Shown: one piece after another, positions 19,401-62,694 of the stretch
How positions within the stretch are numbered: the stretch's first letter is position 1
Layout of the letters: each line of letters opens with the position of its first letter
Assembly: GCA_037951105.1 (NCBI GenBank)
Contig: JBAMJV010002098.1
Coordinates: 1-64,000 of the forward strand
From: Echinarachnius parma
Taxonomy: Eukaryota; Echinodermata; Echinoidea; Clypeasteroida; Echinarachniidae
Reading direction: 5' to 3'
Length of the DNA: 64,000 nt
Made by a program: the position numbers and the translations under genes
The notes under the pieces: model-generated
The model's input: only the letters and a program-made list of their open reading frames with translations
What the model was told of the DNA's origin: nothing
The model's database searches: none

Positions 19401-22400
19401 CTAACTTTGTGTGCATTTCCGTCGGCAATATCGTTCAAATGACTAGCAATTTTGCGCATCCTGTTCAATTTTCGACTGCGAAACGAATTAATGAACCAAG
19501 AATTTCTCCAAAATAACCACTCATAAAGTAAACAATATTGATTCCCCCATTCTTTATTTAAATTACACTACTTAATGGACTGTCAAACATACACATTTTC
19601 AATTATTACTGGAGAAAATGGGTCGGCAAAATCTTCCGATATTTTCTACCGAGAAAATTTATTTCTCGGATCCGTCTCGGATCCGGCTAGGAAGCGATTA
19701 TCGCCGGGAAATCGGATCGTTCCCGGATCGGATAACAGCATTAGATTAAATAGAACTTTCATAAAACCGTCCTAATCAAAGAGCCAGTCCAGTACCAAAT
19801 CCATTACTCAAAATTACAAACTCGTTCTTCCAGTTATTTTGTTCTGATTATATCTGAATACAAATTTAGTTTGTTTTTGTCTGTTTTCATAATGTACTTA
19901 TTACTACATGTATGTACAGTCAAACATACATCTCCAATGGAGACATAAAATTGTGTTTACATCAGATGGTCTCAGCCTAGTGCTGTAACTGACCTTGATG
20001 ATCGGATCGTTTGATCGGATCGGCAAAATTTTATCGATCTTCGAAATCGAATCGATGATCGGGATCGGATGATCGGCTAAAAACAAATTTAAAAAAAATA
20101 AAATAAAATAAAATTAAAAAATTGTTTTTTTTTTCTTTGGAAAATGATCCCCAAAAAACATATTTTGGGAATATAAATGAATACCAAAGCAACATATATC
20201 CATATTAATAAGCCCAAGGTAATCTTGTACGGGTATGCTTTCATTTCAAACTGATTACCTCTTCTTTTACAAAATTACTCACGCCGATTCTGAGCTTAGT
20301 CCCATGTGATTAATTTGGCGTAACCTTTCAGAATCACATGGGACTAAGCTCAGAATCGGCGCGAGTAATTTTGTAAAAGGAGAGGTAATCAGTTTTAAAT
20401 GAAAGCATACCCATACAAGATTACCTTGGGCTTATTCATATGGATATATGTTGCTTTGGTATTCATTTATATTCCCAAAATATGTTTTTTGGGATCATTT
20501 TCCAAAGAAGAAAAAAAAGGTATTTTTTTTTTCTTTTGTTTTTTTTTTGCCGATCCGATCTTCCGATTTTTTCTGCATGATCGGAAATCGGCAAAAACGG
20601 TCCGATCATGTATGATCGGATCGTGATCGGCATGCCGATCCGATGATCGGTTACAGCACTATCTCAGCCTCTCAGGTCCATTTAATACATGTAAAGGGCT
20701 TTCACTTTAAGGAAATGAGAAAGTGGTCTTTAAAACCTGTGGTCAGTAAAGCAGGTTTGAATGTTCCTTTCTATCCTCACACAGAATGAAAGGCTCCAGA
20801 CTATTAAACCTTTCGAGTGCCAAATGAAATTTCAAGAATGGACTTGCCCAAGTCCTTTAAATAGAAACGATTGCATTCATTAATAACTTATCCGTTCATT
20901 CATCTTTACTGAATAAAAATAAAGTTCCACCCGGTATTTTTAAAGAAGTATGAGTTTCGATAAATATTTTAAAATGTATGTATTTTACTAAGTGCATTAA
21001 AGAACAAATCAATAGATCTTATTCCATGAGTACTGTGGCTAGAGTTGACTGTGGCACTCAAGAGGGTTAATACTTTTATCTTTACTTACACAGAATGAAA
21101 GGCTTGGGATTATTAACACGTTTATCTTTACTTACACAGAATGAAAGGCTTCGGACTATTAACGCATTTATCTTTACTTATACAGAATGAAAGGCTTCGG
21201 ACTATTAACGCATTTATCTTTACTTACACAGAATGATAGGCTTCGGACTATTAACACGGTTATCTTTACTTACACAGAATGAAAGGCTGCTGACTATTAA
21301 CACGGTTATCTTTACTTACACAGAATGAAAGGCTTGGGACTATTAACACGTTTATTTTTACTTACACAGAATGAAAGGCTTCGGACTATTAACACGTTTA
21401 TCTTTACTTACACAGAATGAAAGGCTTCGGACTATTAACAATGAGCTGGAGGAGAAGGCAGAGGCCTCTGAGCTGCAGATTAACAGCATCTCCTCACAGT
21501 ATCGCTCAGTTCTTGTGGAAAAAGAGGTATGTTAACGCAAATTTTTAACAACTGCATGTACAGTATATATATGCCATATATTTTGCAACTTAAGGTTTTA
21601 TTTTTGAGAATTTCGCAAATCACTTGCACATGATTAAAAAAATTAACAACATGCTAAAATATTGCAAAGTATTGCAAATGCAAAGCAATACACGAACGTG
21701 TAATGCATGCATTACTGCACTAGCATCTCTATCTCAAGACAGTGATGAATGCGTGTTGGTAGCCAAACAAGAATTCAACCACTCGTGAAATTATTGTAAA
21801 GTCCTGATTCGCGAAAATGTATGTACCGGTATGCAAAATATATGGCTTATACAGTAATGAATTTTAGAAATTTGTTGACCAGTAGAGAAGTTTCTGCTTA
21901 ATTGGGTAGGATTTTGCAAGGTGCATGTATACTGTGCCCCTTCAGCGTACCAGATTACCAGATTAAAGTAGAATTTCATTGAAAATCACAAAATATGAGA
22001 ATAATGCATCACTAGAGAGCTAGGGGCTAACAGATTAACATAAATACTTTTTTGTGTCCCATACCAACACGATATCCTAGTACAACAACAAATCGAAACC
22101 CCATTACAAAAATCAAAAACAAGCGCTCTTTGTGCTAAAAAAACGCCATTGTTTTGATGACGTCATAGTGTGCAAGTTATCATTAGCAGACGATGTCTCA
22201 TTACGAATCTACACAACCATTAGTGCACTCATATTGCCTGCTAAACATGTATTCTTGCCACGAAAGCGCATTTATTTCATTGCATTTTGTAAATAAGGTT
22301 CACCTCGACTTATACACAATAATCATTCACTCAGAGACATTTACGGAAATGAAGACAAATTCAATGAAGTAAGTCACACACCGTCCTACTTTATCTGCTT

Positions 22401-25400
22401 GAAAGACCAGCCAAAGTCTGGGCACGATTCTATTGGCCCATTGTTCAACAGCTGTATTTGATGCGGGTGTCGCTGAATTTGCGGTTCTGCCTGTGGGCGA
22501 CGTGATAGATTAAAATAACTTTATTTAGCATGCTTTACGGGAAAATTGTGTGTCAAAAGACAGAAAAGTGCTTGTGAGGCAGAGGAGCAAATAATGACAC
22601 ATTTTCTCCTTCATAGACAAGGATGATTGAACAGAGTCATGTTAAAAAGGCACTATAAAATGTGTTTGTTATATATCCGACATCGTCTGCTAATGATGAC
22701 CTACACAATATGTGACGTCACAGTACTTCAGCTGGTTTCGGCGGGACTTTTGATGCCATAATGGGCTTATGAATTACCACTATTTCATTGATGACAATGT
22801 TTTGAAACACTTACTTGTAATAATCGTTTAATGGATTATGTATGAAATATGGAAATATGAGCTGAATCTAAATTCAAAATCAATGATTATACTTTAAATG
22901 AAGACATTTTTCAAAAGGAACATCAGAAATGTTTGGTCAATTCATACAGGTCTGTTTTTAATATTACCCCATTAAAAAGAGACCAATGTATTCATGTCTG
23001 TGTGGATATGGGGTTTGAATCAAATTTTGAATAAAGATTAAACTGACATTAAAACTAAAATCAAGAAATTATTTCAAAATTACAAAATTTTATCTTTATG
23101 TTTAGTAAAACTTTATTAAACAAGTAATTGATACAGCATTAGAAAAGAACATGTTTAAAATGTGATGCATAAATTAATTCTCATGAGAATTAGTTGTTGA
23201 TTAGAAGCAGAAACTTATTAATAAATATGAATGCTTTGTGTATTTAAAATATAATTTGATACAAAATGTATGCATTGTTGTTTTCATATCAGGACCAGTT
23301 GAATTCGCTGATCCAGCAGCAACGTGACATGCAGGACCTTCATCAGAGCATGATGTCCAGCACGGCTGACCATCCGGCCTTGACCACTGCCACATCAACG
23401 ACCTCCCTCTCAGGGTCAATGATCATGACGGACGGTCACGACTTCGGCCCGGCGATCATGGGGAACCGTCAAGACTTCGGCCCAGCGATCATGGCAGACA
23501 GTCATGACTTTGATGATGTCATCGCGTCGCAGCAGGAGATTAATAGGTTGTCAAACGAGGTTGGGAGATTACGGGCGGAGTGCAGTCACTGGAAGGAGTT
23601 GGCATCTGGTCAGGGTGGGGCCAAGGTAATAATTAAAAGTTACATTCACCGACAATAAACCTGTTTATGAAGACCACCCAAAACACCCAGAATAAGCAAT
23701 ATTAATAAGCAGGTGGTCTTTATAAGCACGTTCTCGAGGGAGTCAATAAAAGTGGTCTATACAGGTTGTTGCTAGAGCAGGATTGACTGTAGTTGAAGGA
23801 AATGGCAATGAGCAAAGAACATTGGACTTTGTCTGGAATCAAACCTGAGACAGCTGGGGGTGTTTCACAAAGATGGACTAAGTTGGGTAAAAAATTATGG
23901 AAAGCCACTTGTAGCCTTGGAATAAAATATATTACAAAGCAAAAATAGAAGTATTTTAGACTTTTCATAAATCTTACATCAAGAACCTGATATCCCCTTA
24001 ATAATAATTTTTAAAAAATGATTTGAATCAACATTTTATGCCTTTTAAAAGAAATTTAACAAAATTGTTTCAAAGAAACTAATTGCTTTCCATAATGATT
24101 AAGTCCAACTTAGAGTTAAGTTCAACTTAGGATCTTTGTGAAACACCCCCTGGTGTGCTAGACCAGTAGTCCGGGAACAACCACTGAGCTACAAAGCTCT
24201 TAAAGGTGGTAAGTCTAATATAGTGCATAATTATGTAAACAAAACAAACATTACAGAAAGTAATGAATGAATATGTTTTAGATATTTTCTATTTGAATAG
24301 TAAAATAAGTTTTTGTCTAGGGCCTAAAAGATTTATCATCTCATCTTATCTCACAGCCTGTCTTCCATATCGGGGAGGATGAAATTCCAGCTTCTGATGA
24401 AACGACAGAATTGAAGACAAAGATTAAGGTGAGTAAAAGTTAATTAATTTGTCTTCATTTGAAAGATAATAACCCACTGAGTTTGTTGTCGTAAATAACT
24501 GAAATGTCCTCAAGCCAGTATGTGGCATGTCAAAATGTTTTTTTTTCCTTAAATGGTCAATGTTGTGTTTTTCTGTGATGTTACTTTCAGTCTAATGTAG
24601 GTATACAAAAAAGTAAAAAATAGTGCTTGCTGAAAACAGCTACATAATTCTTTGCATGTACAAAATTACAAAGTCCAATTGTTATTTTGAAATGAATTGA
24701 AAACTTTTATCTTGATACCAGGTCTTACAGACAATGGCTTAATGGCACATGTATAAGTTATGTTCTCTCATTCTCAAAAGACAATTTATTGCATCATAGA
24801 ATGATTTTTAAAGGAACATGTTTCTAATTTTTTTCACCAGAACCTTGAAGAGAAATTGCGCAGTGAGGTTGATGAATCCAAACACGAGTTGTCTGGAGTA
24901 CAGAACTCTTAGTCCCACAAGCTGAAGACAATGTTCTATTGTCTTATTTTCTTGAACATCATCATCAACTTATTTTCATTATCATTGTCATCAACTCCAA
25001 GTGGCACTGTAGAGCGCTAATGTGGTCTTATTTATACAAGACAATATTAGGGCACAGTCATATTTCAAAATAAAATATTCTTGTTTTTCTCATCAGAACC
25101 TCGAAGAGAAGCTGCGCCCTGAGGTTGACGAATCCCAACACGAGTTGTCTGGAGTACAGGACTCTCACTCCCACAAGCTGAAGACAATGTTCTATTGTCT
25201 TATTTTCTTGAACATCATCATCAACTCCAAGTGGCACTGTAGAGCGCTAATGTGGTCTTAATTATACAAGACAATATTAGGGCACAGTCATATTTCAAAA
25301 CAAAATATTCTTGTTTTTCTCATCAGAACCTCGAAGAGAAATTGCGCCGTGAGGTTGATGAATCCCAGCATGAGTTGTCAGCTCTTCAGGACTCCCACTC

Positions 25401-28400
25401 ACACAAGCTCAAGACGATGTCCAAGAAACACAAGACGGAGGTCGACGACTTCCAGCGACGCATCGGGTCGCTAGAGAATATGGTTGGACTTGGTGCCACT
25501 TCGTCCTCACCATCATCTGCAGCAACTGATGCTGATGACGATGGCAGCGGCTTGCAGAAAAAAGTGCTTGAATTGGAAGGGGTAAGAACAGTATGCATAA
25601 ACCAGTTATGATTTTTGTGCGCCTTGTTTTTCATAGGGGGTAGGGCAGGGAACTTTTCGTTTTTTTCAAATGTTCTATTTTTTTCTCAATTGTTGTTTTA
25701 ATTTGCAGCTTTTAGGGGCCCATTTGCAGATAATTTGTGAATTGCCTTGTGAGGTTTCTGAAGTCTTTCAAGACACTGTTCATTTTTTTAATTAGTTGTT
25801 GCTTTTTGCTCTTGCTTTTTATCAGATTCTTCGAGAGACGCGCCGTCAGGTTGCTGAACTGGAAGAGGCGAACCACCAACACGAGAAAGAGAACGGTCGC
25901 CTAGTCGAGTCAGAGCTTGAAAGCACACAGGTCGTGCAGATCATTATGTAATTGCAGTGTTGAACATCACTGTTAATCTGAATAAAATATTTATATTTCT
26001 TATCAGATACTTCGAGAGACGCGCCGCCAGGTTTCTGAACTGGAAGAGGGGAACCACCAACTTGAAAAAGAGAATGGTCGCCTAGTCGAGTCAGAGCGAG
26101 AGAGCACGCGGCTCGTACAGACACTGAAACGCAAGGTGGATGCACTGGAGAAGGAGAGGTCAGGGCAGGGTCAAGAGGTCAAGGGTCACACAGAAGCAGA
26201 GGCTGCCAATTTGAAGAACGAGAGGGATCAGCTGAGAGAGGAAGTTGAGCACCTCATGAAAGTCGTGAACAGTAAGATGATTTGGGTTTGACTTGTTATT
26301 GCGTTGGTTGTAAATGTTGTTTGACTTATTAGATATCTATTTATGAATTCATGTATTTTATTTTGTGCAGTTTGTTTTCAATCTGTAACATCGATATTTG
26401 GCATGAGTTTAGAATATTAAGGGGCTTGTAATTGTTTTTTTAATTCAATGTATGCATATTTATTAAAACAGGTAGTTTATTTCAATCGGTAATATTGCAA
26501 AATAGATATATACAGTAAGATAGTGTAGGCACATTGCATCAAACATAATGCATTATTTGTATGAAGATGGAAAGACAAGATAATTGTTTTATGCTCCAGT
26601 CAGTGACCAAAATACATGGGTGCTCGGGTCAATTTAGCCCCAGAAATGCGAAAAAGAGCCCCCAGAAATTTGCATAACTTATAATTCATCTTTCTTTGAA
26701 TTTTCTCTACCCAGGACAAAAGCCAGAGTTGGAGCAGAACCTTGGGTCTCATCAATTGGTCAGGGCCGAGCTGTATGCCACTAAACAAAGACGGCTCACC
26801 ATACTCTACTCTCTCAGCACCTTGCTATGAAAATAAAATGTATAATCATTTTTTCTCATAATGATGAGATGTCTAACATATAATTCATCTTTCTTTCAAT
26901 TTTCTCTACCCAGGACAAGAGACAGAGTTGGAGCAGATTCTTGGGTCGCATGAACCGGTCAGGGCCAAGCTTTATGCAACTAAACAAAGACTGCTCACCG
27001 TACTGAACTCTCTTAGTCCCTAAAATGATGAAAATGCCATTGAGTTTGATATCACATGCTATATGGATTTATGATGATAAGAAGATTAATCCCTTTCTTG
27101 TTTTTATTTTTCCTTCCAGGACAAGAAACAGAGTTGGAGCAGATTCTCGGGTCGCACGAACAGATCAAAGCCGAGTTTTAAGCCACTAAACAAAGACCGA
27201 TCACCGTAGTTCCTCTTATGACCAAAATGATGAAAATGCCATTGAGTTTGATATCACATGCTATATGGATTTATGATGATAAGAAGATTAATCCCTTTCT
27301 TGTTTTATTTTTCCTTCCAGGACAAAAAACAGAGTTGGAGCAGATTCTCGGGTCGCATGAACAGGTCAGAGCCGAGCTTTATGCAACTTAGTAAAGACTG
27401 CTCACCATACTGCACTCATATAGGACCCAAATGATAAAAATGCCATTGAGTTTGATATCACATGCTATGTGGAATGATAAGAAGATTAATCCCTTTCCTG
27501 TTTTTATTCTTCCTTCCAGGACAAGAAACAGAGTTGGAGCAGATTCTCGGGTCGCATGAACAGGTCAGGAGCGAGCTTTATGCAACTAAACAAAGACTGC
27601 TCACCGAGCTGAATGCATCTCATGTACATATCACTGGTCATTCTTTATTAACCCCTGGTCTATAACTAACCCCGCCCAACACACCCTGCCCCCTTTCCCT
27701 CAGATATCAACAAATCTGTATGCTCTTTAGGAAGTAAGGTTGTAGCAATGTTTGATACAGTGGAACCTCATTATAGCGAATTAATTTGGACCATGAAATG
27801 TACCTTGTTGTATCAGGGGAAAAAACAAACAAATATAAAGAGTTACGATGAGCAAAATTACTGTGTTATAAGAGGGTTTAGTTAAACCAGTGCTCTTTAT
27901 AACGAGATTCCACTGTATTTGAAGTGTTATTTTATAAACCTTTACAACAGGCCTCAAAAATGCAAAGTACAGTGTACAGTGTATAACTTTTCAGTAGATG
28001 TTCTGGAACTCACTTTATATCATACAAATATTGTGATTGAAATAGAGCAAAGAAAATGGGATTCTAACGGGATTCGAACCCGAGACCTCCGGATTGCTCT
28101 TACCGACTGAGCTATAGAAAACCCTAGTACGGCGTTCGTCCCTGAAACTCCTTAATTTTCATTGCTCGTGTGGTCAGAAGCTATAATTATAAACCTGACA
28201 TAAACCTGAAGGACAGAAATCAACTTGGAGATATATGCGAGGGATCACCGAAGGGATGCAGCTTTTTAAAATAATTAATTCAACCATATAAAGAAACTGA
28301 CTTGAAATAATTAATGGGATTGAAAAAGAGCAAAGAAACTGGGATTCCAGTAAAGCATTGACAATCATTCATGAAATATATGCTTGCTCTTATGCTAATA

Positions 28401-31400
28401 CATGTAATGCGTGCTATGATGAAAGGATAGTGTTTAATAATGTAAAAAGGTATACTAAGAAATCCACATTTTCTTTTACAGAAGATCGTTGGGCCAATGG
28501 ATGAAATAGGATAGGTTCACAAAAAAAAACATACAAGGACAAAAAACAAACAGAATTGGTGCACTCACAAACAATGCTTGCTTACGGAACCATCAGCCGT
28601 TTCGGTTCTGTGAGAGTTGGTGATTAATTGCATTGTTTATAAGTAACACAACCCTTTGCAAAGTGTTGGACATCTATTTAATATCAAACAACAGTACCAA
28701 AATATATAACCTTGTGTTGTTCTTTGCGGGGTGGTCCCCTTTAAACCAAATTATGTATTTTTCTATAAGAACAGAGAGCATACAGATTTGTTGATCATAA
28801 TTTTCAATGTTAATTATCAGTGCATGTTTGTATGGTAAAACTAATGGAACCAAATTAATTGAAAGAAATATTCAAATTGCTTAGCAATATTATTGTTTCA
28901 AAGTCAATGGGTGGAATTCACAAAGGAGGTTTGTAGGAGGTTTGTACAAACCATGGTTTGACGATGGTCTACATCTATGGAATGCTGCTCGTATACAAGT
29001 AAATTGTACATCCTCATTGTTAACAAGTGAGGAGTTTGCATTCTTTCTCCATCAGTTTACAAATGGCACTCCATAGATGTAGACCAGGATCAAACCATGG
29101 TTTGTACCAACCTCCTACAAACCTCCTTTGTGAATTCCACCCAATGTGATAATGATTAACCTTTAACTGACCCTTAACCATATTTATTTGCTTCTGCATG
29201 TTATGTTAATTTAATCAAACTCAAACTGAATTTATTTTTCGTACTTCGTTGGAAATGTCCATGAGTATTAATTAAATAATCTGCATTTAATATAGGATGT
29301 CATGGTTTATGTTATATATTATTTGATTGTTATTTAGTCTATATGTAAGGGGAACAATTAGCAATTTAAATTTAAACTATTCTCTTCAGTTAGAACTTGT
29401 CCATATTTTTCCCCCATGAATATTGTCAACATAAGTTACATACCGTCGATGCAGAATGTCAGGCAGTGGTTTAATCTGCAAGTATATTACAGGCAAACTG
29501 TCGTGTTTCAAAAGCTAAAATAACCACATGAACCATAATTCTATTTGATAACAGTATCTTTTGAACATCCACAAGGTAATGTTAATAACAAATCTTTTTA
29601 TAAAGCGCAATATTACAATCCAGTCTCAATGTGCACAGAAAGGAAACATAAATATGACTCAAAAGAATATTTGTTAACAATTCAACAATTTAATGAAGAA
29701 CAAACATTCAATTAATTTTACAATTCATTGACAAACAAGAAATTGTTCAGACTGGCTCAATATTGCAATAAGTAATAACTTATAAACCAGCTGCATGTTA
29801 CAAGATTTACTTCTTTGCACAAAAGGCACCAGCATTGTACATAATAGTGGAACTTGTTCAGAGATTAGCACACAATATTCACCCATTCAGCATGTTTTCA
29901 CTAAAACCTTTTAAAAAGAAAAGAAAATTAAGGGCATGTATTGCACATTTAAAAAATATTTTCAGCTACATTGTATGATTTGTTTAAAATAATAATAAAA
30001 AATCATATATTTTGCACTGTGCAGACATCAGGATAAACTACTTGGCACAAAGTATTCACCAAATTTGCACATGTTTATTTTAAAATTCCAAAAAGAAAGG
30101 AAAGTTAATGGCATGTTTTGCACATTTAAAATTTAAGTAAATTCAGCTCCATTTATAAGAATACTTTATAAGGTAGAGAGCAGGATTAATTTGGCACAAA
30201 GTATTCACACTTTTGGCATGTACATGCATTTCATTAAAAAAAAAACAGTTTAATTAAATTCAGTCTTTAGTTTATAATTTATTAAAGGGCATGTTTTGAA
30301 TATTATATTAACTATTTTGGACTACAACCCCTTTGATGCCCCTTCTCCCTTTCCCCGTCACATAAAATAATATGTCACTTTCATGAGAAATCAAAACACT
30401 GCATGCAATGCCATCATTATGGGTTTGTTTTTGTTTTGGGCATAACTTTTTGATAACATCAACATTACTTACAATTACAAATAATAATACAAAATACAAT
30501 TTGGTAAATATGATTTATGATCAATTGCATGTGTCAAATACTTCATCAGTGTGAATATTATCATAATGACTACATTTCTTTAAAAAGAGCAATTCACAGT
30601 AGAATTGTATCTACACTTTCTTGTACATTTCAAAAGCAAAAGTACAGATAAATGCTAAGAATATCTTTTGAATGTCACCTGATCAACTTCCAACCGATAT
30701 GGGCCAACAACTGGTAGTGAAGTCAGATTCATATAATTCATTTTGAACATGATGTTTAGAATAGGGTTATTTAGATAATCAACATTTTGATAAGGAAGAC
30801 AAAACAGTTAATATCAGCACTTTTGAAAAATAAGACTGCCCTTGCCCCAGCATGAACCTTATGGAGATTCTATTGGTATCTTTGCATGTCCTGTAAACCC
30901 AACTCCAAGGTACAACCCAGAAGCGCAATCAAAATGTTCTCTCCTGCCTTCCCTTTATATGTTAGCTTTTAAACTTGTGCATGACATTTAGCTATCTGTA
31001 GTATAGATCTATATCTGTTTTCTTTCTGCAATTAAATGACCAGTTAAAAAAAAAAATTGATCTTTGATAACGTCATATTGTTAAAATTATAACTATTTTA
31101 TAACTTATAACATTATATCGTTATAACGATATATCATAAAAAACATCTATTCTAAAAATTATATTTCTCTATTTATTCACTCTCTTCTGAGCATTAACGA
31201 ATTGAAATATTATTGCAGGGTTTAGTTGAACATAATATACTTGGCTTTCTACATGTATGTACACTGCCGATACTGAATTAATTATTAGAAATACTGTGCC
31301 AGCTGTTACAACCCATTTACCGTTTATAAACCAAGTTTAACACTTTGTATCCGATGTTTGTTCCTTCTCTGGTTATATATTTGAACGACACTTTGAGAGA

Positions 31401-34400
31401 TGTTGGATTTTGATATCAAATATTGGTACTAAATAAAATAAACCTGTGTCCTGTGGTGGTCCCCTTTTATACTAGATGGGTTTTGTTCTGTGACATATTC
31501 TTAAAATTAGCTCAAACTATCCCCACTGAATAAACTAATGCACTGTCCCACATATTCATATCTGTGTAGGCTGTCAATGAAATTTGACTGCTGGAATTTC
31601 AGTCTTGCAATGGGTTTTAGGTCATGTGACTATCCCAGATGATTTATTATACAAACTTGTGTACACAGATTTTTTGTGTGTTCTCACAAGTGCTGTAAAT
31701 ACTAGGAACATTTTATTGATCTCCCCCCCCCCCCCCCCCAATGGTTATGTGACTCCCAACGACACTTGTCTATTGGAACATGATATAGGCCAGTACAAGT
31801 GCAATGTGTAATACATATCTGTATACATACCATGTATTTGTTTATTCACAGTGTTGTGCCAGAAAAGGGACAATGTTTTTGTTTTGTTTATGAGTGTGTG
31901 TGCTTTCCCCAAACTCATATGGGGCCCTAATGACAACCATCTCTTGCAAAATCATGTAGGCCAGTACCAGTGCCATGCTGGAGGACATCCACGATGCCAG
32001 GAGAAAGTTTTCCACGGAGGAGGCCCTCAGGAGGTCAAAGCTGCTCAGGGAGAAACAGGACATTGTCAACAAGATGATGGAAGCCGGACAGAAAGTAAGC
32101 TTCCTGTACTTGGTACTTTGTAGTTGAATTCTTCTCAATACTCCAGAGGCATAATAGGAGTTTTACCTGGAGGTGGGTCCGAGAGAGTCACAGTGCTTAG
32201 CCCCTAAGAACATAAGGTTCCGTAGCAAGTGCATTCTGGAATGTATGAAGTGAGGGCTAGTTAACTGTGGATTGAACTAGTTTATTCCATAAACTGTGTC
32301 ATAAAGCAAGCCACCACACTGAATTTTATTTTCCTGCTTGCACATTTAGGCACAAAAAATCATGGGTTTTTTAATTTTACTCGCCTGAACAGAAAATTTA
32401 CTTGCCCCTAAAATATTTGTGAAAAAGACAAATTAATCGCACTAGGTTGGCAAATCTCTTCCATGTTTCTAAATGAGATTGACTCATGAGGAATTCACAT
32501 TTTCTCTCGTAGTTAAACAGAAATGCCCAAACTTGCCCCGTAGAACTTACACACCTTAGCCCAAGTTTTGTTTTTGTTTTAGGATAGAATGATGTTGATA
32601 TCGTAGCTTTATGGAAATCACGTCTTACAATGTAAGATTTCCAACAGGGAAACTGACCAGAAATATATGATATAAATTAAAGAACATATGGTTTTGGGAC
32701 GATTCAAACCCAAGACTCAATTTGCTAATTTTCATTGATTTAAGATTGGATCTCCTATCTAAGATTGTTTCCTCTTTGTTTTCTGATCAGATATCTGATA
32801 GTAAGACCACTGTCGCCACACTTGAGGCTGCCTCCGTAGACATCTCCGACCAGGCAGCGGAGATCGTATCCGACATCGGCTGCCAGCAGCATCAGGAGAT
32901 CACGGCAGACTTCGTCAGTAGTCTGGAGAAGGAGAACGATCTGCTCAAACACCACGTGTCAAGACTGCAGAATGAGGTTATCATTGTTGAGGTGTACCTG
33001 TGTTAATAATCTGCTCATGATGATTTAATGACTATGTTTGTGTAAGAAAATTATTATTGTAATTCCTTCTTTGAAAACTAGTTTGTTAGATTATATTAAT
33101 AGCTGGAATTCACAATGGTGGTTTTAACTTTAATAATGTTTTTAAATCCCCATAGTTTTATTGGGTGCCACTAATTTATCTCTCATTTCCAAATAAAAAC
33201 AAGTTGCATGCCGCCACATGCACCTTATTGTTCCAGAGTCAGTAAGAGTGAGCTGTGAGTAAGTAAATTTGTATAAATGTCAAATTTCACGAACTCAATC
33301 TGCAACCAAATATGGCAAGCCTTACAATATCATTCTTTTGTAAAGGATCCACCGAATTCTGGTTTCAGACCACTGATATGTGACCTTACACCACAAAACG
33401 AACAATAGGTCTGGGAAAATGATTATGCTGATTTTCACATGACATCACAGTTGAATTCATCACCTTTAAAATTGTATAAAAGTTGTCATATTCAGACAAG
33501 GCAAACAAGGGAGAAACGGGCCACTTCAAAGATCGGCGTCCATTCAAGAGCTGTAATCTGATAATTTGTATTCAATGAAAAATCGTACTTAAACATGATT
33601 TCTGACGATCAAAATTTCATAGAAGGTATAATTATGTAGATTAAGATACCTTCATTAAGGAAACACAAAAATCCTGAATCTCGTACTTTTAACCAAATTT
33701 TACTATTTCAGCTAATAACAGAGAAACTATATCCGCGACATAACGGTCGTTTTGTGGTGTAAGGTCACATATGTTAAGTCTTGATGTTGCTTCCCTGACT
33801 GAAATGCTTGTTGAAACCTGATTTCATATGCTGGTTATCTGTCACTGGAAATTCCACAGATCGATGACCTGAACCAGTCCTGCGAGTCTCTAGCAGACGA
33901 CAAGAAGCAGTGCGAGGAGCTCATCGTCAGTCTCACACAAAAGGTCAGCAAACTTTCAGGCGATGACCCCACGGGTTCGTCAGTGTCCACACGCGTCCCC
34001 AACTCCTATGGCAATCTGGCTCCCGACCATTTCCTCTCTGACTCGGAACTGACTCCTAATGCAACAGGAGAGAGCGATGTGGATGCACCCCAAGGTGGGA
34101 GCACTCCCGTAAGACACCACATTTCCTACCACCGACCGCACTCCCCATCGGATTCGAGTGTGGCGTCGGATGTGAGTTCATCGATGAGGGAGGGATGGAC
34201 GTCGGAGACCGAGCTGAGCAGCGATGGCGGGCTGCTGATGCAAAGCAAACGGTCGCTGGCCGACGATGTCGTCAGCTTTGACGGGGAGTATGATGACTCC
34301 ATCATGTTCAATGGAATCAAGGAGAGGTGAGAAATTTGAATTAAGTAAAACCTGTCTAAATTTACCACTAAGGGAAATAGGAAACAACGTAATGGATCAA

Positions 34401-42802: not shown

Positions 42803-42833
<31 letters not shown>

Positions 42834-43803
42834 GAAGGACCAGACACTACTACAGCTATCTATGGTTCAAGAGGAGTCTGAGGAATACATCCTGTCACTC
42901 AACAACCTACAACTGGTCCTAGAACAGTTCCAACAAGGTAGGAAATATGATGATAAGTTTAATACCGAGATAATGTTGATTACTTGATTGTGATGTTGAT
43001 GATGATGGTGGTGATAAGCATGTGTGTGTGTGTGTTGACAAGGCTGTACTACGGCTGCCGATGGTCCAAGAGGAGTCCATCCTGTCATTCAACAACCTAC
43101 AGCTGGTCCTAGAACAGTTCCAACAAGGTAGGAAATATGTTGGTGATGATGGTTATGAATGTGGTGGTAATAGTGGTGATGAGGATGATGACAATGATGA
43201 TGACAATGACAATGATGATGATGAAGAAGGACAAGGCTCTACTACGGCTGTCAATGGTCCAAGAGGAGTCCTAGGAATACATCCTGTCACTCAACAACCT
43301 ACAGCTGGTCCTAGAACAGTTCCAACAAGGTATGATGGTGATGATGGTGGTGGTGGTGGTTGTGGTGGTGATAAGGATGATGATGATGATGATGATGATG
43401 GAAGATGTTGAAGGATCAGGCCCTACTACAGCTGTCAATGGTCCAATAGGAGTCTGAGGAATACATCCTGTCACTCAACAACCTACAGCTGGTCCTAGAA
43501 CAGTTCCAACAAGGTATGATAATGATGGTGGTGGTGGTGGCAGTGGTATTGATGATGATTATGGTGATGATTATTAATATAATATATAAGGTCCAGGCCA
43601 TACTACAGGCTCTATCAATGGTCCAAGAGGATTCGGAGGAATATATCCTATCACTGAACAACCTACAGCTGGTGCTAGAACAGTTCCAACAAGGTAGGAA
43701 ATATGATGGTGATGATGAGGATGATGGTGGTAGTGGTGGTGGTGGTGCTGGTGCTGGTGGTGGTGTTGATGATGATGATGGTGGTGGTGGTGGTGATGAT
43801 GAC

Positions 43804-43836
<33 letters not shown>

Positions 43837-46800: not shown

Positions 46801-49800
46801 GTGGATGGGGAAGAAAAGGCAGTATGTGCAAAGAGCAAAGAAAGGCCTATTCATACTCATGGGGGTGTTTCACAAAGATCCAAAGTTGAACTTAACTCTA
46901 AGTTGGACTTACAAATTATGGAAAGCCGTTAGTTTCTTTGAAATATTTTTTTGTAAAAGTTCTTTTAGAAGCCATACAATGTTGATTCAAATTACTAATA
47001 TTCTCTATTATCAAGGAGATTTCATGTTCTTGATGTTAAATTGATAAAAAGTCAAACATTTTATTATAAGGCTTCAAATGGCTTTCCATAATCTGTAAGT
47101 CCTACTTGGAGTTAAGTTCAACTTAGGATCTTTGTGAAACACCCCCTGAAGTTTTTGATTGAATATTATACCCTTTCTGTAAACAGTACTTTATTGATTA
47201 ATTATTTGTGCCTTTTTAACTACAGGAAATGGAGTGGGGAAGTGGATGGGGGAAGAAAAGGCAGGAGGGGTAATGCCCCATTGTGCAAAGAGCAAAGAAA
47301 GGCCTATTGGTACTCCTGTGCCCCGTTTCATAAAACATTTGCAATTGTTGTACGTGTCCAATTATTGTTACTATTAGGTCAACAGCCAATCAGCACAAAG
47401 CATTTCAGCTGTTGCTATGGAAGTTACAATAATTGGACACTTACAACAATAGCAAGTGTTTTATGAAACGGGGCACTGAAGTTTTTGATAGAAAGTTATA
47501 ATCTTTCTTTCAACAATACTTCATTGAACAATTCTTTGGTCCTTTTGAAGTACAGGAAATGGAGAAGGATGTGGGATGTGGGTTGGGAGGGGCAAGGGTT
47601 GATGAACGAGAGGGAAGTGTCCGATCTTGAAACTTGCCGATTGGTCTACAGCCTATTATAAATTTAGGGGCTTGTGATTATAATTGTGGATTATGATTCG
47701 GGTTAGGGGTGTGGATTAGGGTTAGGGTTAGGTTTTGGGTTAGGAATCGTGTTTGGAGTTGGGGAAATTGAAGTTAAAGGCATCAGGTAGTAGACCAAAT
47801 AAGTTGAAGACCAACTGAGTGTAGACCAAGCGAACATAAACCTCCCATCGTGCAGGAGGCCCTCAAAGCCTAGGGAAAACAGATTTTGCTTTGTAATAAG
47901 TATGTTCATCATTGTTTTATCTTCTAGGCCGCTGGATCTGTTCCTGTTCCTGGCACCATGATGTAAATTTTTACTTTGTAATAACTTCTTGTCATTATTA
48001 TTGTCACTGTTGTTAGGCCACTGGTTAATGATCTTTTCCTGAATGTTTTGTAAGCAATAATTTCTTGATAATAGTGATTTTTCTCTGTAATACTTATTTG
48101 TGTAATTTTCTTAATTGTTTTTAGGCCACTGGTGAAGAATCTTTTCCTGAACTACCTGGTGGCGCCACCGGCCAAGCAACAGGAGATGGTCAAACTGATC
48201 AGCAGTGTACTCAGCTTCTCCCAGGAAGACATGCATAGAGTGAGTAGAAACTATTATGATTTCAATTCTTTATCATTCAAATTCTTCTTAATTTGTGCAT
48301 TTAGGCAAGCCCCCACACTAACTTTGTTCCCCTAATTGTTCAAATGTTCCCCAAAGAAAATTTCCCTTCACTAAAACAAATTTGGAACAAAACAAAAATA
48401 AATTGTGCTGGGTAGCTTGATCTATTTGGGAGATTTCTCAGTTGTTTGTAGATGAGACTTTCCCATAAGGAATTACATTTTCATCTCTTAGTTCAATAGA
48501 AATATTAGTTTGCTGACCGGGCAACCAAACTGTGAAATTTCCTTTTGACATAGATACTAAGCCCAGGCGATCGGGCAAGTGATGTGTCAAGCCCTGATTT
48601 AGGCACAAATACATTATGTAACCGAGCATGGTGGCTTAGTGGTTAGAGTGTCCGCCTCATGCACGGGAGGTCCCGGGTTCGAACCCAGACCGGGTCATAC
48701 CAAAGACTTTAAAAATGGTACCTCCTGCCTTCTAACCAGACACTCTGCATTTATAGAATGGAGAAGGGAAAGTTAATCACGCGAGTTACCAGAGGAGTGG
48801 CCCCCTTCTGTAACTTTCGCTACATTTAGTAGACGTGTGGCCTAGGGCTAATGAATCGGAGATAGGCGCTGCCTTATGTGCCAACATTGGTACGGGAAAG
48901 ACTTTAACTTTAACTAACTAACATTATGTAACAAATTAATATAGATTTGTTTTCCAATTGTGAAATCATACGTACTGTGTTTCCCTTTCCTTTCAGGTTG
49001 GTCTGAGCAGTTCTGCTGGTGGCTGGTTAAGTGGATTCTTCCGTCGTGGACCAGGTCCTAACGTCACCCCGCCCACCACACCCACCAAGGCTAATGCGGT
49101 AAGCAGATTGTATATGAAAATTAGTTTCAAATACTTTGTATTTTGGGGTTGCTTGGTTTGAGTGCCGTTCAGCACAGATGTCAATCTATAATAATAACAA
49201 TGAATGGGGATTTCTTAATCCCTTATGATCCTCTTAATGGCACATGTACTACTTGTGAGTGACCACATATTTCTAAATGAAGGGGGTAATATAATGTGGT
49301 TTGTGAAATAGAAAAAATGTGTAACTTAAACTAAAAGGTATATATATATCCATTAGTCTATTAACCTGTTGCTTACAGGAACAAGATGAGCTATGTACAA
49401 GGTCTATGGGGATTTCAGAATTTTGAAGTGAATAGGTTAAACCACAAAGTTTACCTATTTGTAAAACTCCTTTAAGTCATTTGTAAATCTAAATTATTGT
49501 ATTCCTTTTCTCCCTGCAGTCTTTCAGCCTAGAGTTCGTCCACTTCCTGGAGGCGGAGTCCACCCCCAAGCGCAGCCCCCGTCTCCCGGTGGATGAGATG
49601 AGCAGAGACACCCACCATCCACGCTCTTCCATCAACCCCTTCTCCTCCCCTATACCACAGCACTCCCCCTTCATGCAGGGGAATCCCCACACGGCCTCAC
49701 TGGGCGCTTCCCCTGGCTCCAGGGGTCCGGGGGCTGCGCACCCCTTCCTGAAGTCAACGGGGGCAGCCGGCGACACCCATTGGGGTGACCCAGCCTGTCA

Positions 49801-53883: not shown

Positions 53884-53885
<2 letters not shown>

Positions 53886-53889
53886 TATT

Positions 53890-54950: not shown

Positions 54951-54959
54951 TGAGTTGGC

Positions 54960-58199: not shown

Positions 58200-58204
58200 T
58201 TGAT

Positions 58205-58375
58205 GAACCGCTTTACATTTCATCGTCAGTGTGCAAATTGTAGATTTCTTAGAAATATTGTAATGCTACCCTTTTCAACTTTTGAAAATATGATTTTTGC
58301 TGTAATTCAATCTCATTCTATTTCTAAATTATAATATTTTTTCATTTACATCATAATATTTGTTATTGTTAGTGC
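58205..58375 (+). repeat. Displaced copy of one E2F exon-5 array unit
   Basis: Matches 62,283-62,451 (gaaccgcttta-atttcatcgtc through gttattgttagtgc). It starts in exon-like sequence and ends with exon 5's acceptor and first codon. It lies between duplication copies A and B. Confidence 0.9.
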
Positions 58376-58998
58376 TTTTTTTTTCCCCCCAGCACCCCTC
58401 ACCTCTCATTGACATTGACAATACAAAGTTTCTTGTGTGATGTTGGCATTTCAAAAATCGACTGCCGATGTGTAGTACAAAATTAGAAGGGTGCTTCTGT
58501 CTGATTACTGTTGGGAGCTTGGACTTGGTGACTTGGTGGTGAATGTTTGTGCACGAATCATGTTAATTTTCATTTTGTCAATCATGATTTATAATGATGC
58601 AACAAGAAAAGTGGTCTGTTTTTTATTGATTCAAAATTCATTGGTTTGTTAGCAAAGGCCATAATATTATACAAATGTACTTATACTTAATTTGCACTGG
58701 CATAATAATTTTAAAGCCTTTACCAAATTATTTGATTCCCTTTTTGTTTTAAAGACCTGGTCTGAAAATTTGTATTTTTTAATATTTTCCCTTTATTAAA
58801 ATAGTCATGTTATTCATTGCCATGGCATTGGAACTCTGATCTGAACAATATTGCCCCTGAATTCCAAAAGAAGAGCTCCCAATTATGAATTAGCTAAAAT
58901 TAAAAAGAGGTTTGTCAATTGTCATTAGAGTTCAATTAAAACAAATTGTCACACACTAATAATACTTCGCAGGAAGTTGTGTGATGATACAAAATAAC
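58374..58998. repeat. E2F intron 1 duplication, copy B (empty site)
   Basis: 625 bp. At 58,789-58,800 it reads ccctttattaaa, the uninterrupted form of the site split by the transposon in copy A. Confidence 0.93.
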
Positions 58999-59274
58999 AA
59001 TGAATAAAACAAATTCAATAGTGTTATTTTAAATGTTAAAGCAGGAAAACTTGACAAGTTGCCCCCAAAACATTAATTTCGTACATGTTTTTTTTTCTCC
59101 AAATTATTTACGAGCTTCATTTTACTGATGAACTCATCTTACCGTTGTTTCTTTGCAAAAAAACAACTTGGTTGTCCCACTTATAATATGGCTGTTGTTT
59201 CGTTTTCTAAAATTGTTAGTGCTACATTTTACTGATTAACTTAACTTATCATTCTTCTTCACGCTTCTTTGCAG

Positions 59275-60150
59275 AAAACAAACCCAGCTTTGAATGAACC
59301 CTGATTGTCCCACTCGTAGTATGGCAGAGTTAGCATCCACCATGTCTAGTTTCCTCCTACCGAGCAACTTCCAGCCCTTGGACCAGGACAGTGAGAGCGA
59401 TAGCGAATCAAGTCTCATCGAGAGCGGGTACAAGATCCCCTTCTCATCACTGAGCCCTAGGACCATCTCCAGCTCGAGCGGCAGCAGTCCGAACGTTGAC
59501 GTTGAGTCGTGCAGCCCGAATGTGACAGTTGAGTACTTGCCACAGTCGCATGACTGCTCGCTAAAGACAAACACGAGCGCCTGGGACCCCGAGTCCTCAG
59601 ATCTAACGATAGACTCGGGTTATAATCCAGATGGGTCATCAACGACAAGTGAACTTGGTTCCAGCGGAGCGTTTTCATCCCTGGAAAACAGCGGTTATGG
59701 TGTAAATATTTCCTTGCAAAACTCTGGTAATGAGAGCTCATTCAATAGAACTTCAGAACACAACAATTCTACCTTGAACTCCTTCAATTCAAGGAGTAAG
59801 CAGCAGGGTACATTACAACCAGTCACACCAACAAAACCAACAGGGAGGGACCCACAGATCGACCCGCTCACGCCAACAGCCAACCTCAAAATGCTGCTGA
59901 GTGCAGTCAGTCCCGAGATCAGGAACATGGAGAAGAAGAAGAAAGCGCGTTTATTTAATGCGATGGTGGAAGCGGCCACGGGACCGCCACACTCGGGACA
60001 AAAGGCGAGGCAGCCCGATGTGAGGCATGTGTCATCGTGCGGCATCGACACGGTGACCATTGAGCTCTCGGCGGACGAGAACGGAGTGGAGGGGGATGAC
60101 GGAGAGAAGAACAACAGGAAATCAAAGTCCCTGGGTCTTCTCTGCCATAA
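59275..60150 (+). CDS. E2F7/8 exon 2 (first coding exon)
   Basis: Acceptor tctttgcag, donor gtaagt. Coding from 59,294; N-terminal Ser/Asp-rich region to SLGLLCHK. The upstream part of the exon has an in-frame stop, so it is 5' UTR. Confidence 0.92.
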
Positions 60151-62694
60151 GTAAGTAATTGTTAGAAAGTTTTACCTGGTGACCCATTCGGGCAAGTAGA
60201 ATACAGATCATATTGTGCCTACTCAAAACAAAAATTAGGTGTCCGCAAAGGCGCAAACAAAGAAAAACATGTGCATGTATGCTACCTTTTTGCTCATACA
60301 GGCAGTTAAAATTGTATTATCCTACTATGAACAGTGCATATCTGAGCTTTTGGTAAGATGTGAATTTGAACTTTTCAAACATCCAACTGCAATGTATACA
60401 ATTATTTAAGCTGCTGTATTTTTTCTACCATTGGTCAGTCTTGAACAAGTCCTTACCAAATACATGTAAAGTTGAATAATAAGCCCCTTGATTGTCATGC
60501 AATGTTTAAAAGTGGTAATTTATTCTACCGTTTATTTGTTTTTGTAAAGTAGAGACAAAATAGCAATTTGTCAAACTGTTGTTTACTCTAAGGCTAAGCA
60601 TTTTTTCATTAATTTTTTTTCTCGAGCATACTGTTTTCTGTTTTATAATATCAAATGATGCCTGAAATAATATTATTTTTTTTACATTTCAACATTGCTA
60701 ATGTATCTTTTTCTCTCACTTCTATCCTTCTGCCAGATTCTTGACCAAATATCCTGACTACCCTGAAGATGGAAAGGCAATGGAGATTTCTCTGGACCAG
60801 ATATCAAAAGACCTAAGTAAGTTTTATCTTATGAAGTTATGATTATCATTACATGGGCAATATAAACTTATTGGGTTATCCTTTTCCTTGTTGTTAATCA
60901 TACAAACATCATGGCAGTGGAAAAAATTAATATTAATTTTTGGGGGGCTTCTTTTCAAGCTTTCCTGCATGAAAATAACACTGTAATATTTGTAAATGTA
61001 TCAAACTCTATGCAAATTTCCGGGGCTCTTTTTGGCATTTTGGGGGCGAATTTGCTCCAAGCCCTCGTGTAGTCGTGTATTTTTTTCACTGCATCATGGA
61101 CTGGTACATGTACAAAGGAAATTAAATGTAATTTGGGTTAGATGGCAACTTTCTCGAGGCCCTGTTTTGAAATAATTCCTTACAGATGCCATCAACTCAA
61201 CACGCACAACCAACCATTTTGTAAACTATATTGATGAGTTACGAGTAAGAGTGAAACTTCTCTGCAGTTTTACCTATTGATAAGTTACCGTTATACTTAC
61301 AGCCCATCACCTCCATTGATGGGAAAGATATGAAATGAAAGATAGCCTGCATGCATTAAATTACTGCCCTCTACAATGTTTCCCTGATGATTTAAGCGAG
61401 ATTCATCAAACAACAGCGGGCTACTAACTCAGACTTGACATTGCAATGTTCTGATCATTTTTGTTCTGTCTCATTCATTATGTCAGGTGTGGAGAGGAGG
61501 AGAATCTATGACATTGTCAACGTCCTTGAGAGCGTGGAGATGGTGAGCAGGAGGGCCAAGAATCGTTATCTCTGGCACGGCAGAACGCACCTCAACAAGA
61601 CACTGGCAAAGCTAAAGGTACGGTTATAATATTTTTGATGTGGAAACGCTATCTTTTGAACTACCGGTACTGGAAACACTTCTAACCATAACCACTAACC
61701 AGGCTAAGTCAATTATAGAAATATTTTAATCCACGCTGAAATTCAGTAATACTGAAAAGTATTTGTTATGGCCAAGAATGGTTATCTCTGGCACGGCAGA
61801 ACGCACCTCAACAAGACACTAGCCAAGCTAAAGGTAATTTGTGTGGCTTAAGAACACTTTCCTGAACACACATTATCTAGTATCTTATAACCAAGGATCG
61901 TTATCTCTGGCATGCAGAATGCACTTTAAATTTACACTGGCCACCGACAGTGACAAAGATAAATTGTCGTAGCAGGACTCGCCCATAGCAGTATCGAGTG
62001 CCAACTGCCACCAGAAATTTAATTTAGCCACTAGAAACTCATGTATTGGCAATCAGTAAGCAAGGGTACGAAACAAAATTCTATGGGTCTATTGGATAAG
62101 TAGTTTTAACCACCTTAAGGGAGAGCCCCGACTGTATTTATATTACATCATCAATTTGGAGATTTTGTTTAGAACATTTTTATCAAATGCTAATTCCGCT
62201 TTCAATTTTAATTATTGACATTTATTTCAGTGTCTTGGCCAAAGTCAGAAGTTTGGATAACAGCTCATGTACTGTAAACCCAGAACCGCTTTAGATTTCA
62301 TCGTCAGTGTGCAAATTGTAGACTTCTTGGAAATATTGTAATGCTACCCTTCTCAACTTTTGAAAATATGATTTTTGCTGTAATTCAATCTCGTTCTCAA
62401 TTATAATATTTGTTCATTTACAATTACATAATATTTGTTATTGTTAGTGCCTTGGCCAAAGACAAAAGTTTGGAGAGCAGCTGGCACAAATCCAGAACCG
62501 CTACATCATGGATGATGGGCCCTGTGTGTCGTACGACGAGAACGGCTCACCCCTCTACATCGGTAATGACAGGTCACGGCCTGACATTGCTTATGCTAAG
62601 CGACCGCTCCAAGACCTTAGCAACCTCCCAGCAACCACGATGATGCAGTCACCAACAGAGTTTGAGATGATGAAGAGAGACATTTGGGAGGATG
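59294..62694 (+). CDS. Atypical E2F transcription factor (E2F7/8 class), 5' part, gene runs off the window
   Basis: Known role: E2F7/8 carry two DNA-binding domains, bind TTTSSCGC sites without DP and repress E2F targets and the cell cycle. Seen: exons 59,275-60,150 (coding from 59,294), 60,737-60,816, 61,487-61,617 and 62,448-62,694 with matching phases, 438 codons in the window. The Ser-rich N-terminus holds [20 protein letters not shown] (about residue 188 on), matching E2F7 [21 protein letters not shown]-binding domain 1 spans about residues 279-345: [19 protein letters not shown], then [15 protein letters not shown] with the RRxYD recognition motif at 317-321, and NRYLWHGR. Exon 5 is the linker to the second domain, which is not in the window. 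TGA stands directly before ATG 59,294; a second ATG is at 59,321. I cannot say E2F7 or E2F8; invertebrates usually have one. Confidence 0.93.
60737..60816 (+). CDS. E2F7/8 exon 3
   Basis: 80 nt, phase 2-1: [20 protein letters not shown] followed by QISKDL. Acceptor ttctgccag, donor gtaagt. Confidence 0.93.
61487..61617 (+). CDS. E2F7/8 exon 4, recognition helix
   Basis: 131 nt, phase 1-0: [20 protein letters not shown]... [19 protein letters not shown]. Donor gtacgg. Confidence 0.95.
61770..61930 (+). pseudogene. Downstream copies of the E2F7/8 exon 4 3' end
   Basis: Copy 1 (aagaatggttatctctggcacg to aagctaaag, then gtaatt) ends at 61,833, 216 bp after the real exon end. A worse copy (ggatcgttatctctggca) lies about 120 bp further. 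Both lack acceptors. Confidence 0.9.
62231..62292 (+). pseudogene. Upstream decoy copy of E2F7/8 exon 5
   Basis: After tttatttcag, tgtcttggccaaagtcagaa to cagaaccgct repeats the exon start 217 bp before the intact copy, with a frame-breaking difference and TAA or TAG soon after. Confidence 0.88.
62448..62694 (+). CDS. E2F7/8 exon 5, inter-domain linker
   Basis: 247 nt, phase 0-1: [20 protein letters not shown]... continuing through a poorly conserved linker to DIWEDG. The start matches the region after WHGR in E2F7 (RLGEEQKYEEQMAYLQ). Donor gtgaga. Confidence 0.88.

Follow-up and report, generated by a model that had tools for sequence, protein, structure and literature searches.

How did fragments of exons come to lie in tandem beside the intact exons of two neighbouring genes in Echinarachnius parma? 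The window, the whole 64-kb stretch analysed here, is echinoid DNA that holds the TRIP11/GMAP-210 gene intact, with 22 exons, together with part of a neighbouring gene that we take, from its resemblance, to belong to the E2F7/8 subfamily. Using reading frame and splice sites as criteria, we placed 22 TRIP11 and four E2F exons in the window (Table 1). GRAB and GRIP domains were detected in the TRIP11/GMAP-210 product, residues 1-500 of which are 66-71% identical to sea-urchin relatives. A search of the genome for a second TRIP11 haplotype found none.

Self-comparison of the window demonstrated that the repeated exon fragments reported in the original prediction are real in both genes, and it reproduced their steps, including the short outliers at exon 3 and exon 20; at exon 18 the middle step measures 589 bp, which the original prediction put at about 200 bp after removal of a presumed later insertion, and for exon 12, the steps first given as 219, 211, 230 and 217 bp changed slightly on remeasurement (Table 1). 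The claimed recurrence in unrelated exons was borne out by 14 exon-edge duplication events at 13 of the 26 exons, a rate inflated by the fact that the window had been selected for this pattern. Two of these events (exon 9 and E2F exon e2), both newly found here, are weak, and 12 events at 11 of the 26 exons were left without them. All 11 acceptor-type sets lie upstream of their exon and the three donor-type sets lie downstream, as had been described, which is not additional evidence because tandem duplication forces such a geometry. The data also support the proposal of one intronic and one exonic breakpoint, which leaves a single intact exon. In addition, the TRIP11 coding sequence contains in-frame duplications within exon 4 (33 bp) and exon 14 (96 bp), absent from the Lytechinus variegatus and Strongylocentrotus proteins compared, showing that the duplication process also strikes coding sequence.

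Table 1. Genes and exon-edge copies in the 64-kb window (window positions; steps in bp)
Feature	Position	Strand	Details
TRIP11/GMAP-210 gene, 22 coding exons	16274..49816	+	Uninterrupted 2597-aa frame
Exon 3, weaker and older copy	20770-20807	+	
Exon 3 acceptor array	21067..21440	+	46-bp unit, 8 copies, last fused to intact exon 3 (21416-21526)
Exon 6 acceptor-side copies	24822..25420	+	Copies at 24841 and 25097, upstream of exon 6 (25327-25581); steps 256, 230
Exon 7 acceptor-side copy	25816..26121	+	Step 181
Exon 8 acceptor-side array	26675..27613	+	Four copies and intact exon (27520-27623); steps 199, 206, 201, 199
Exon 9 acceptor-side copy, weak	31769..31977	+	Step 171; score 41
Exon 12 acceptor-side array	35005..35985	+	Four copies and intact exon (35891-36053); steps 219, 212, 229, 217
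Exon 15 acceptor-side copy	41539..41861	+	Step 224
Exon 15 donor-side copy, downstream	41877..42154	+	Step 177-179
Exon 16 donor-side array	42624..43744	+	Intact exon (42565-42728) first, then five copies bearing GT and a TGA/TGG-rich intron piece; steps 209, 190, 202, 184, 180
Exon 18 acceptor-side copies	44490..45561	+	Copies at 44509, 44672 and 45261, upstream of intact exon (45491-45590); steps by self-comparison 163, 589, 230
Exon 20 acceptor-side copies	47928..48151	+	Steps 89, 108
E2F7/8-like gene, exons e2-e5 in window	59275..62694	+	Continues to about contig position 82457
E2F exon e2 acceptor-side copy, weak	59086..59300	+	Step about 110; copy 59086-59256, score 41 in self-comparison and 34 as junction tile; match ends about 19 bp short of acceptor
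E2F exon 4 donor-side copies	61554..61943	+	Exon at 61487-61617; steps 216, 119
E2F exon 5 acceptor-side copy	62222..62502	+	Step 216

These copies are not chance matches. Five dinucleotide-block shuffles of the masked window gave a best score of 31, versus 41 to 818 for the arrays, and when junction tiles were compared with the flanks of other exons, a score of 40 was reached in 1 of 528 trials, the sole hit being a genuine dispersed repeat in the e5 flank. No inverted local copy scored as high as 34. Among genic events, 14 of 17 were located at exon edges versus 23-29% expected, and in an age-matched subset, chosen by the analyst, the proportion was 6 of 9 (p 0.006-0.02). Pure detection bias was rejected as the cause, since detection favoured exon-anchored pairs only about 1.4-fold in simulation and even a 3-fold weight left p at 0.003 for 14/17. 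A strong excess at exon edges is nevertheless weakened by the selection of the window and by two further results. In the eight E2F exons that follow on the contig, whose spans were set by eye, no edge or tandem copy was seen within 350 bp (Fisher p 0.013 versus the window exons); exon G has a donor copy 510 bp away, exon B a dispersed 260-bp acceptor piece 7.2 kb away, and exon E internal repeats. Local copies are also common genome-wide: in a 200-kb sample of other sequence (20 stretches whose contigs and positions were chosen by the analyst and are not strictly random), 250 of 1800 tiles had a copy within 1.2 kb, and the 15 of 52 exon-edge tiles with a match exceed this background only about twofold (Fisher p 0.007). 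In the window, 56 of 230 intergenic tiles matched, mostly within one satellite-like block. An ab initio search for exons in the 200-kb sample, which yielded just seven, one with a local copy at its donor, gave too few for use.

A profile search of the same genome with two domain profiles of dynein, a second gene family picked by the analyst, revealed the same arrangement at further loci, ruling out a special property of the TRIP11/E2F locus. Retrieval was restricted to the 15 loci whose paired matches are offset by no more than 300 bp; 14 were examined as DNA, leaving out the pair C6613:155291/155726 (step 297), and all 14 carried copies. Their median step of 200 bp agrees with the predicted unit near 200 bp, although the set was drawn only from such offsets and under-samples short steps, as short copies fall below the length that a profile match requires. 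Of the two profile pairs at L038, the one with a step of 273 bp had no DNA repeat behind it, so a few of the 37 profile pairs are false. Among the loci are an array with 96.8-98.9% identity and a two-unit super-repeat (L039) and a whole-unit copy with 88% identity (L043). Dynein C1423 has an intron that two paralogous stretches (L034 and L038) lack, with an unsplit copy inside it, which makes it at most a candidate for intron gain. Across the window and dynein loci together, upstream (acceptor-side) sets outnumbered downstream sets by 23 to 4 (p 0.0003), or by 20 to 4 without L037 and the two weak window cases (two-sided p about 0.0015). An assembly artefact, for which one could cite the single collapsed assembly and two adjacent exon 3 pairs identical over 22 bp, is extremely unlikely, as adjacent copies in other arrays differ by at least 4% and the pattern is present on ten other contigs.

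We then compared step sizes, with steps per array taken as medians set by the analyst. Exon-linked steps fell within 160-230 bp in 22 of 28 cases, compared with 11 of 40 for other local duplications (median 146; the 40 steps were copied by hand from a listing for which a rule-based count gives 41), and the distributions differed strongly (KS p 6e-6). The 200-kb sample yielded 55 local duplication loci, of which 41 had steps of 60-240 bp (median 145), none lay between 260 and 350 bp, and 14 had larger offsets. The original prediction's own check, a genome-wide peak near 160-260 bp, gave a split outcome: exon-linked steps do cluster near 200 bp, and the other local duplications are spread as just described. 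That prediction had also raised guidance by chromatin or replication as a possible explanation. In one form of this reading, the unit copied corresponds to a single nucleosome repeat, or to one Okazaki fragment with ends that follow nucleosomes, and exon-positioned nucleosomes draw breakpoints to exon edges. The clustering of exon-linked steps is consistent with this reading, as are yeast data in which loss of a flap nuclease raises tandem duplications and in which small inverted triplications, a related class with pieces of about 150 bp, have breakpoints aligned with nucleosome midpoints and Okazaki ends, in the portion of that work drawn on here (PMC13334657). However, the mean of the 25 exon-linked steps that reach 130 bp or more is 206 bp (standard error 5), below the repeats of 218 bp in gastrula and 240 bp in sperm given for sea urchin in the published account used here (PMC12961432), values that may not be those of this species or of germ-line stages other than sperm. 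Other local duplications are shorter and broader in step, and exon 3, exon 20, e2 and L042 (step 110, 100% identical) are exceptions. The nucleosome reading is thus unproven, and we regard it as rather unlikely; the overall interpretation of the original prediction is partly supported.

Splicing tolerance may shape the observed sizes. Exon definition is the premise here: duplications of 60-240 bp would arise everywhere, and those below about 150 bp would be removed near exons through pairing of the added splice site with the genuine one, so that the apparent 200-bp period would come from the overlap of an upper size limit with a splicing limit. Other duplications do become scarce beyond about 240 bp, close to the ceiling observed at exons, and the short half of the step range is rarer at exons. 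Window copies keep AG in 24 of 26 cases and GT in 7 of 7 and would be usable if close. The exceptions at 46 and 89-110 bp argue against this reading, as does the finding that steps of at least 130 bp are still longer at exons (median 200 versus 160.5, p 0.002); moreover, the profile search misses short steps and so biases the dynein set upward, and the upstream bias is not predicted. Shaping of this kind is compatible with the explanation that we prefer below, but we consider it only a possibility, and a somewhat doubtful one.

Next, we examined how far homology extends. It covers the whole unit at one constant offset, as in head-to-tail tandem duplication, in exon 3, in parts of the exon 6, 8 and 12 arrays, and in dynein L034, L035, L039 and L043; the young cases that match across the whole unit, intron included, are parts of the exon 6 and 8 arrays, L039 and L043. 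Intron homology was weak or undetectable in L032, L036, L038, E2F exons 4 and 5, and exons 7, 9, 15 and 20. In L032, E2F exon 4 and the exon 12 copy at 35014, the exon part is 95-98% identical and the flanking intron has no detectable homology, a pattern not expected from plain tandem duplication and neutral decay. Exon 8 has the opposite trend, with differences at 15 of 92 exon sites versus 1 of 99 intron sites. The three cases with unmatched flanks could reflect exon pieces copied without their intron surroundings, whether off pre-mRNA or cDNA or through template switching, and placed in a nearby intron. L033, where exon n is joined to exon n+1 with the intron missing, the upstream copy at L037, which has no acceptor, and the distant piece of E2F exon B point the same way. 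Nevertheless, many copies include intron with a polypyrimidine tract, the young arrays match over the full unit, and a single GAG stands at the L033 joint instead of the two that splicing would leave, which fits a microhomology deletion, making such copying improbable.

The copies decay like pseudogenes. Copy-only changes in seven arrays fell 35/13/36 on codon positions 1/2/3, with stops in 10 of 84, and the low second-position count (13) is without explanation. True-exon-only changes fell 5/3/14, and we ascribe the third-position lean of all pooled copy-to-exon differences (76/37/140) to true-exon changes counted against several copies. The copies lack one exon end and many carry stops, unlike full-exon duplications with both splice sites and an open frame. 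Retention as splicing decoys or alternative exons might be suggested by the splice signals that most copies keep and by exon parts often more alike than introns. It is very improbable, considering the stops, the indels and the lack of a third- over first-position excess in copy-only changes, and signal retention is near the level predicted from divergence by the analyst's estimate. For alternative exons in particular, the missing ends and pseudogene-like changes led us to reject the idea.

Together, these results are probably best explained by frequent local tandem duplication that is tolerated when an intact exon is left, followed by expansion, partial gene conversion and decay. Local tandem duplications, with units mostly of 60-240 bp, are frequent in this genome. 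Where such a unit runs from an intron into the following exon, or more rarely from an exon into the following intron, an intact exon stays beside its own donor or acceptor, so that splicing can continue and the event would be tolerated by selection. The additional fragments are dead and often stop-bearing; some may expand to arrays via unequal exchange, and copies may be partly overwritten by gene conversion before decaying. Copying may proceed by slippage or microhomology-guided template switching: in eight young duplications from the 200-kb sample, breakpoints overlapped by 3-27 bp in five and not at all in three, exon breakpoints being mostly too decayed. Short steps may be purged near exons as the extra acceptor is spliced to the true donor. 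Given a detection bias of only about 1.4-fold, frequent tolerated duplication alone does not account for the exon-edge excess, and the size focus and upstream bias stay without explanation under it. A bolder proposal, which we offer tentatively, is that a specific mutational process is still acting in sea-urchin genomes where introns give way to exons, one with a fixed piece of about 200 bp tied to a chromatin or replication unit, about five times commoner at acceptors than at donors, that leaves ghost copies of front edges at perhaps a tenth of exons or more.

Each event has a built-in clock and control, the functional exon serving as the reference and the copy being neutral. The many pairs per genome would allow the effects of chromatin, replication and splicing tolerance on the size and place of duplications to be measured in the germ line, not in yeast mutants or tumours. 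Besides making introns longer, the arrays may mislead gene prediction and offer material from which new splice sites and introns can arise.

Several known systems resemble these arrays in part. Minisatellites and satellites with nucleosome-length monomers consist of head-to-tail units of 150-250 bp that grow by unequal exchange; the head-to-tail order is common to both, whereas here copies are usually few and each array derives from a different functional exon. Rad27/FEN1-type replication duplications involve pieces of about 150 bp and short microhomology, and the mutant raises tandem duplications, but the class described in the part of that study used here consists of inverted triplications found in yeast and tumours (PMC13334657), unlike a germ-line exon-edge array. 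In Drosophila, small segmental duplications are similarly frequent (83.4% under 500 bp), with divergent sites enriched in coding sequence and depleted in introns; those duplications are polymorphic and mostly purged, and arrays at exon edges do not figure in the portion of the report considered (PMC6380325). The Exonize catalogue of within-gene exon duplications in 20 eukaryote genomes includes inter-boundary and intronic matches, that is, partial or degenerate exon copies reaching introns, but the account used here describes neither a fixed step nor an acceptor bias (PMC12343006), whereas the present copies are tandem, near 200 bp, and in some cases arrayed. Finally, intron gain by tandem genomic duplication, as presented in the part of the paper used here, also duplicates exonic sequence and splice signals with the protein unharmed; there, a wholly exonic AGGT segment makes a new intron (PMC3443670), whereas here the unit spans an existing boundary.

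Self-comparison of the window, covering every claimed step but the corrected one in exon 18, reproduced the arrays of exon-edge copies together with the steps given for them in the original prediction. The arrays lie in two genes of this echinoid. TRIP11/GMAP-210 is complete, with consensus splice sites at 22 exons and one uninterrupted frame of 2597 aa; residues 1-500 are closest to sea-urchin proteins (Lytechinus variegatus, 71%; Diadema, 67-68%; Strongylocentrotus purpuratus, 66%), and the C-terminal part carries GRAB and GRIP domains. Downstream lies an E2F7/8-like gene with an E2F_TDP domain, whose exons beyond the window were placed by reading frame in the next 20 kb; the window opens a 118-kb contig (assembly, 1.2 Gb in 14,790 contigs). 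The last 20 residues of TRIP11 exon 8 are missing from the S. purpuratus isoform X2 protein, a gap compatible with an in-frame inner donor, CAG|GTCAG, in this exon; the same inner donor is present in the exon 8 copies here.

Positions of features in the window, in L029 (the stretch with later E2F exons) and at the dynein locus L033
Position	Location	Feature
7463-13501	upstream of TRIP11	dense local and satellite-like repeats, offsets ~220 bp to >2 kb
23421-23510	TRIP11 exon 4	in-frame coding tandem duplication, 33 bp, ~2.7 copies; not seen in L. variegatus and S. purpuratus proteins
26675-27613	TRIP11 exon 8	exon 8 array
27520-27623	TRIP11 exon 8	intact exon
28917-29145	intron	long inverted repeat (by eye), probably a MITE-like element
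34487-34796	intron	long inverted repeat (by eye), probably a MITE-like element
37204-37371	TRIP11 exon 14	in-frame coding tandem duplication, 96 bp, 2 copies; not seen in L. variegatus and S. purpuratus proteins
48625-48700	intron 20	tRNA-like stretch carrying GGTTCGAACCC (by eye), perhaps a SINE head
62394-62453 / 58322-58378	E2F exon 5 intron flank / 4 kb upstream	dispersed repeat, 90% identity
L029:578-837 / L029:7814-8072	E2F exon B / 7.2 kb downstream	260-bp acceptor-side copy, 96% identity
G000:C1423:132100-133200	inside a dynein intron	L033 exon fusion

In an independent search, tiles of up to 111 bp covering each of the 52 junctions were compared by alignment with the flanking 1.2 kb in both directions. 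At a score of at least 40, a local direct copy was found for 10 of 26 acceptor tiles and 5 of 26 donor tiles, two of these five belonging to acceptor arrays of short exons. Among the controls, 8 of 151 intronic tiles outside the arrays (from three loci), 5 of 52 exon-interior tiles and 56 of 230 intergenic tiles (mostly from one satellite-like block) matched, and the maximum score in five shuffles of the window was 31. The single high score in a cross-exon control arose because of the dispersed repeat flanking E2F exon 5. Two weak cases, exon 9 and E2F exon e2, were added to the known arrays. Within the genes, 14 duplication events lay at exon edges versus 3 that were intron-only, where a random surviving unit is expected to contact an edge in 23% of placements; before any correction for this window having been chosen for the pattern, p was 3e-7, rising to 9e-6 once a simulated 1.4-fold detection weight was applied, and the subset with still-alignable introns (6 of 9 at edges) gave p 0.006-0.02. 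Compared with random genome tiles (250 of 1800), the excess at junctions (15 of 52) was only about twofold (p 0.007).

Twenty 10-kb stretches of other contigs contained 55 local duplication loci, indicating that short tandem duplication is common in this genome; the step was at most 300 bp in 41 (median 145) and larger in 14, with none between 260 and 350. The eight E2F exons that follow on the contig, located by eye, showed no edge copies within 350 bp, which indicates that the window rate (13 of 26 exons) is high for the genome. At greater distances, a donor-side copy of exon G lies 510 bp downstream, and the exon B copy comprises 196 bp of intron followed by 54 identical exon bases. Exon E carries repeats within its coding sequence.

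As an exon sample independent of the pattern, we used the dynein heavy-chain domains PF08393 (108 rows) and PF12774 (117 rows), dropping 19 rows on contigs taken for second haplotypes. Neighboring profile matches sharing at least 25 profile positions formed 37 pairs, with a step of at most 300 bp in 29 and a larger offset in 8. The 29 short-step pairs represent 15 loci; in all 14 that were fetched, exon edges or exon pieces are directly repeated at the DNA level, with steps of 193, 217, 212/201, 207, 191, 186, 262, 191, 184, 222, 167, 276 (plus a younger 110), 187 and 221. DNA comparison at a further profile pair inside L038 (step 273) showed no repeat. At locus C3447, 13 fragments of one exon edge precede the intact exon with steps of 184 and 206 and two long gaps; in the stretch that was fetched, the four copies and the intact exon share 96.8-98.9% identity and form a two-unit super-repeat. 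The copies lie upstream in 12 of the 14 loci (L037 without an acceptor) and downstream in one (L034). In the remaining locus, L033, an upstream exon end is fused directly to a downstream exon start with one GAG at the joint, where a spliced joint would carry two, and no intron interrupts the paralogous stretches L034 and L038 at this position; judged from these sequences, intron gain or a microhomology deletion is possible. By estimate rather than direct count, the sample suggests that about one in ten exons has edge copies at profile sensitivity.

The exon-edge copies are dead. Changes private to a single copy, pooled over seven arrays, fell 35/13/36 on codon positions 1/2/3, with 10 stops in 84, and those private to the true exon 5/3/14; all copy-versus-true-exon differences, many counted repeatedly, numbered 76/37/140. 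In the window arrays (e2 left out), all 7 donor copies and 24 of the 26 acceptor copies keep their splice dinucleotides, which we estimate to be about the level that divergence permits. The exon and intron parts of the copies have separate histories. Between true exon 12 and its copy at 35014, two differences, each synonymous, occur in 92 exon sites, and homology of the copy's intron part to the true-exon intron was undetectable; the E2F exon 4 copy differs at 3 of 64 exon sites versus 28 of 93 intron sites plus ten gaps. This pattern points either to gene conversion, with the living exon as template, or to copying of exon pieces alone. Since the whole unit matches in young arrays, we favor the former and infer that conversion from the living exon overwrote copies. 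In the exon 8 array, the exon pieces are more diverged than the preceding introns, opposite to the other arrays: between the copies at 27120 and 27321, 1 of 99 intron sites differs, against 15 of 92 dead exon sites.

Exon-linked steps (n = 28) had a median of 197.5, with 22 in 160-230, versus a median of 146 and 11 in 160-230 for other local duplications (n = 40; Fisher p 6e-5, KS p 6e-6); the two also differed among steps of at least 130 bp (MWU p 0.002). The simplest account is a high local tandem duplication rate plus a filter. Units spanning one exon edge would leave a complete exon beside its own partner splice site. Given exon definition, the premise of this selection, short steps would be selected against, as the true donor could be joined to an extra acceptor. 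Such purging and a mutational ceiling near 240 bp could jointly mimic a 200-bp period without chromatin. The main rival is that a chromatin or replication unit sets the step size: according to PMC13334657, duplications arise in yeast flap-nuclease mutants, and a related class has breakpoints that track nucleosomes and Okazaki ends. Averaged over the 25 values of at least 130 bp, the exon-linked step is 206 ± 5, below both 218 (p 0.03) and 240 (p 1e-6), the sea-urchin nucleosome repeats of gastrula and sperm given in PMC12961432; PMC9903204 puts the sperm repeat at about 250. Upstream sets outnumber downstream sets 23:4 (p 0.0003), a bias predicted neither by duplication plus a filter nor by chromatin or replication and, in our view, the most informative unexplained fact.

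Among the matches listed, drawn from a literature collection with few subscription journals, none dealt with size-restricted tandem duplication of exon edges, which is weak evidence of novelty. The closest known systems among those matches are Exonize (PMC12343006), the gain of introns through tandem genomic duplication (PMC3443670) and the small segmental duplications described in Drosophila (PMC6380325).
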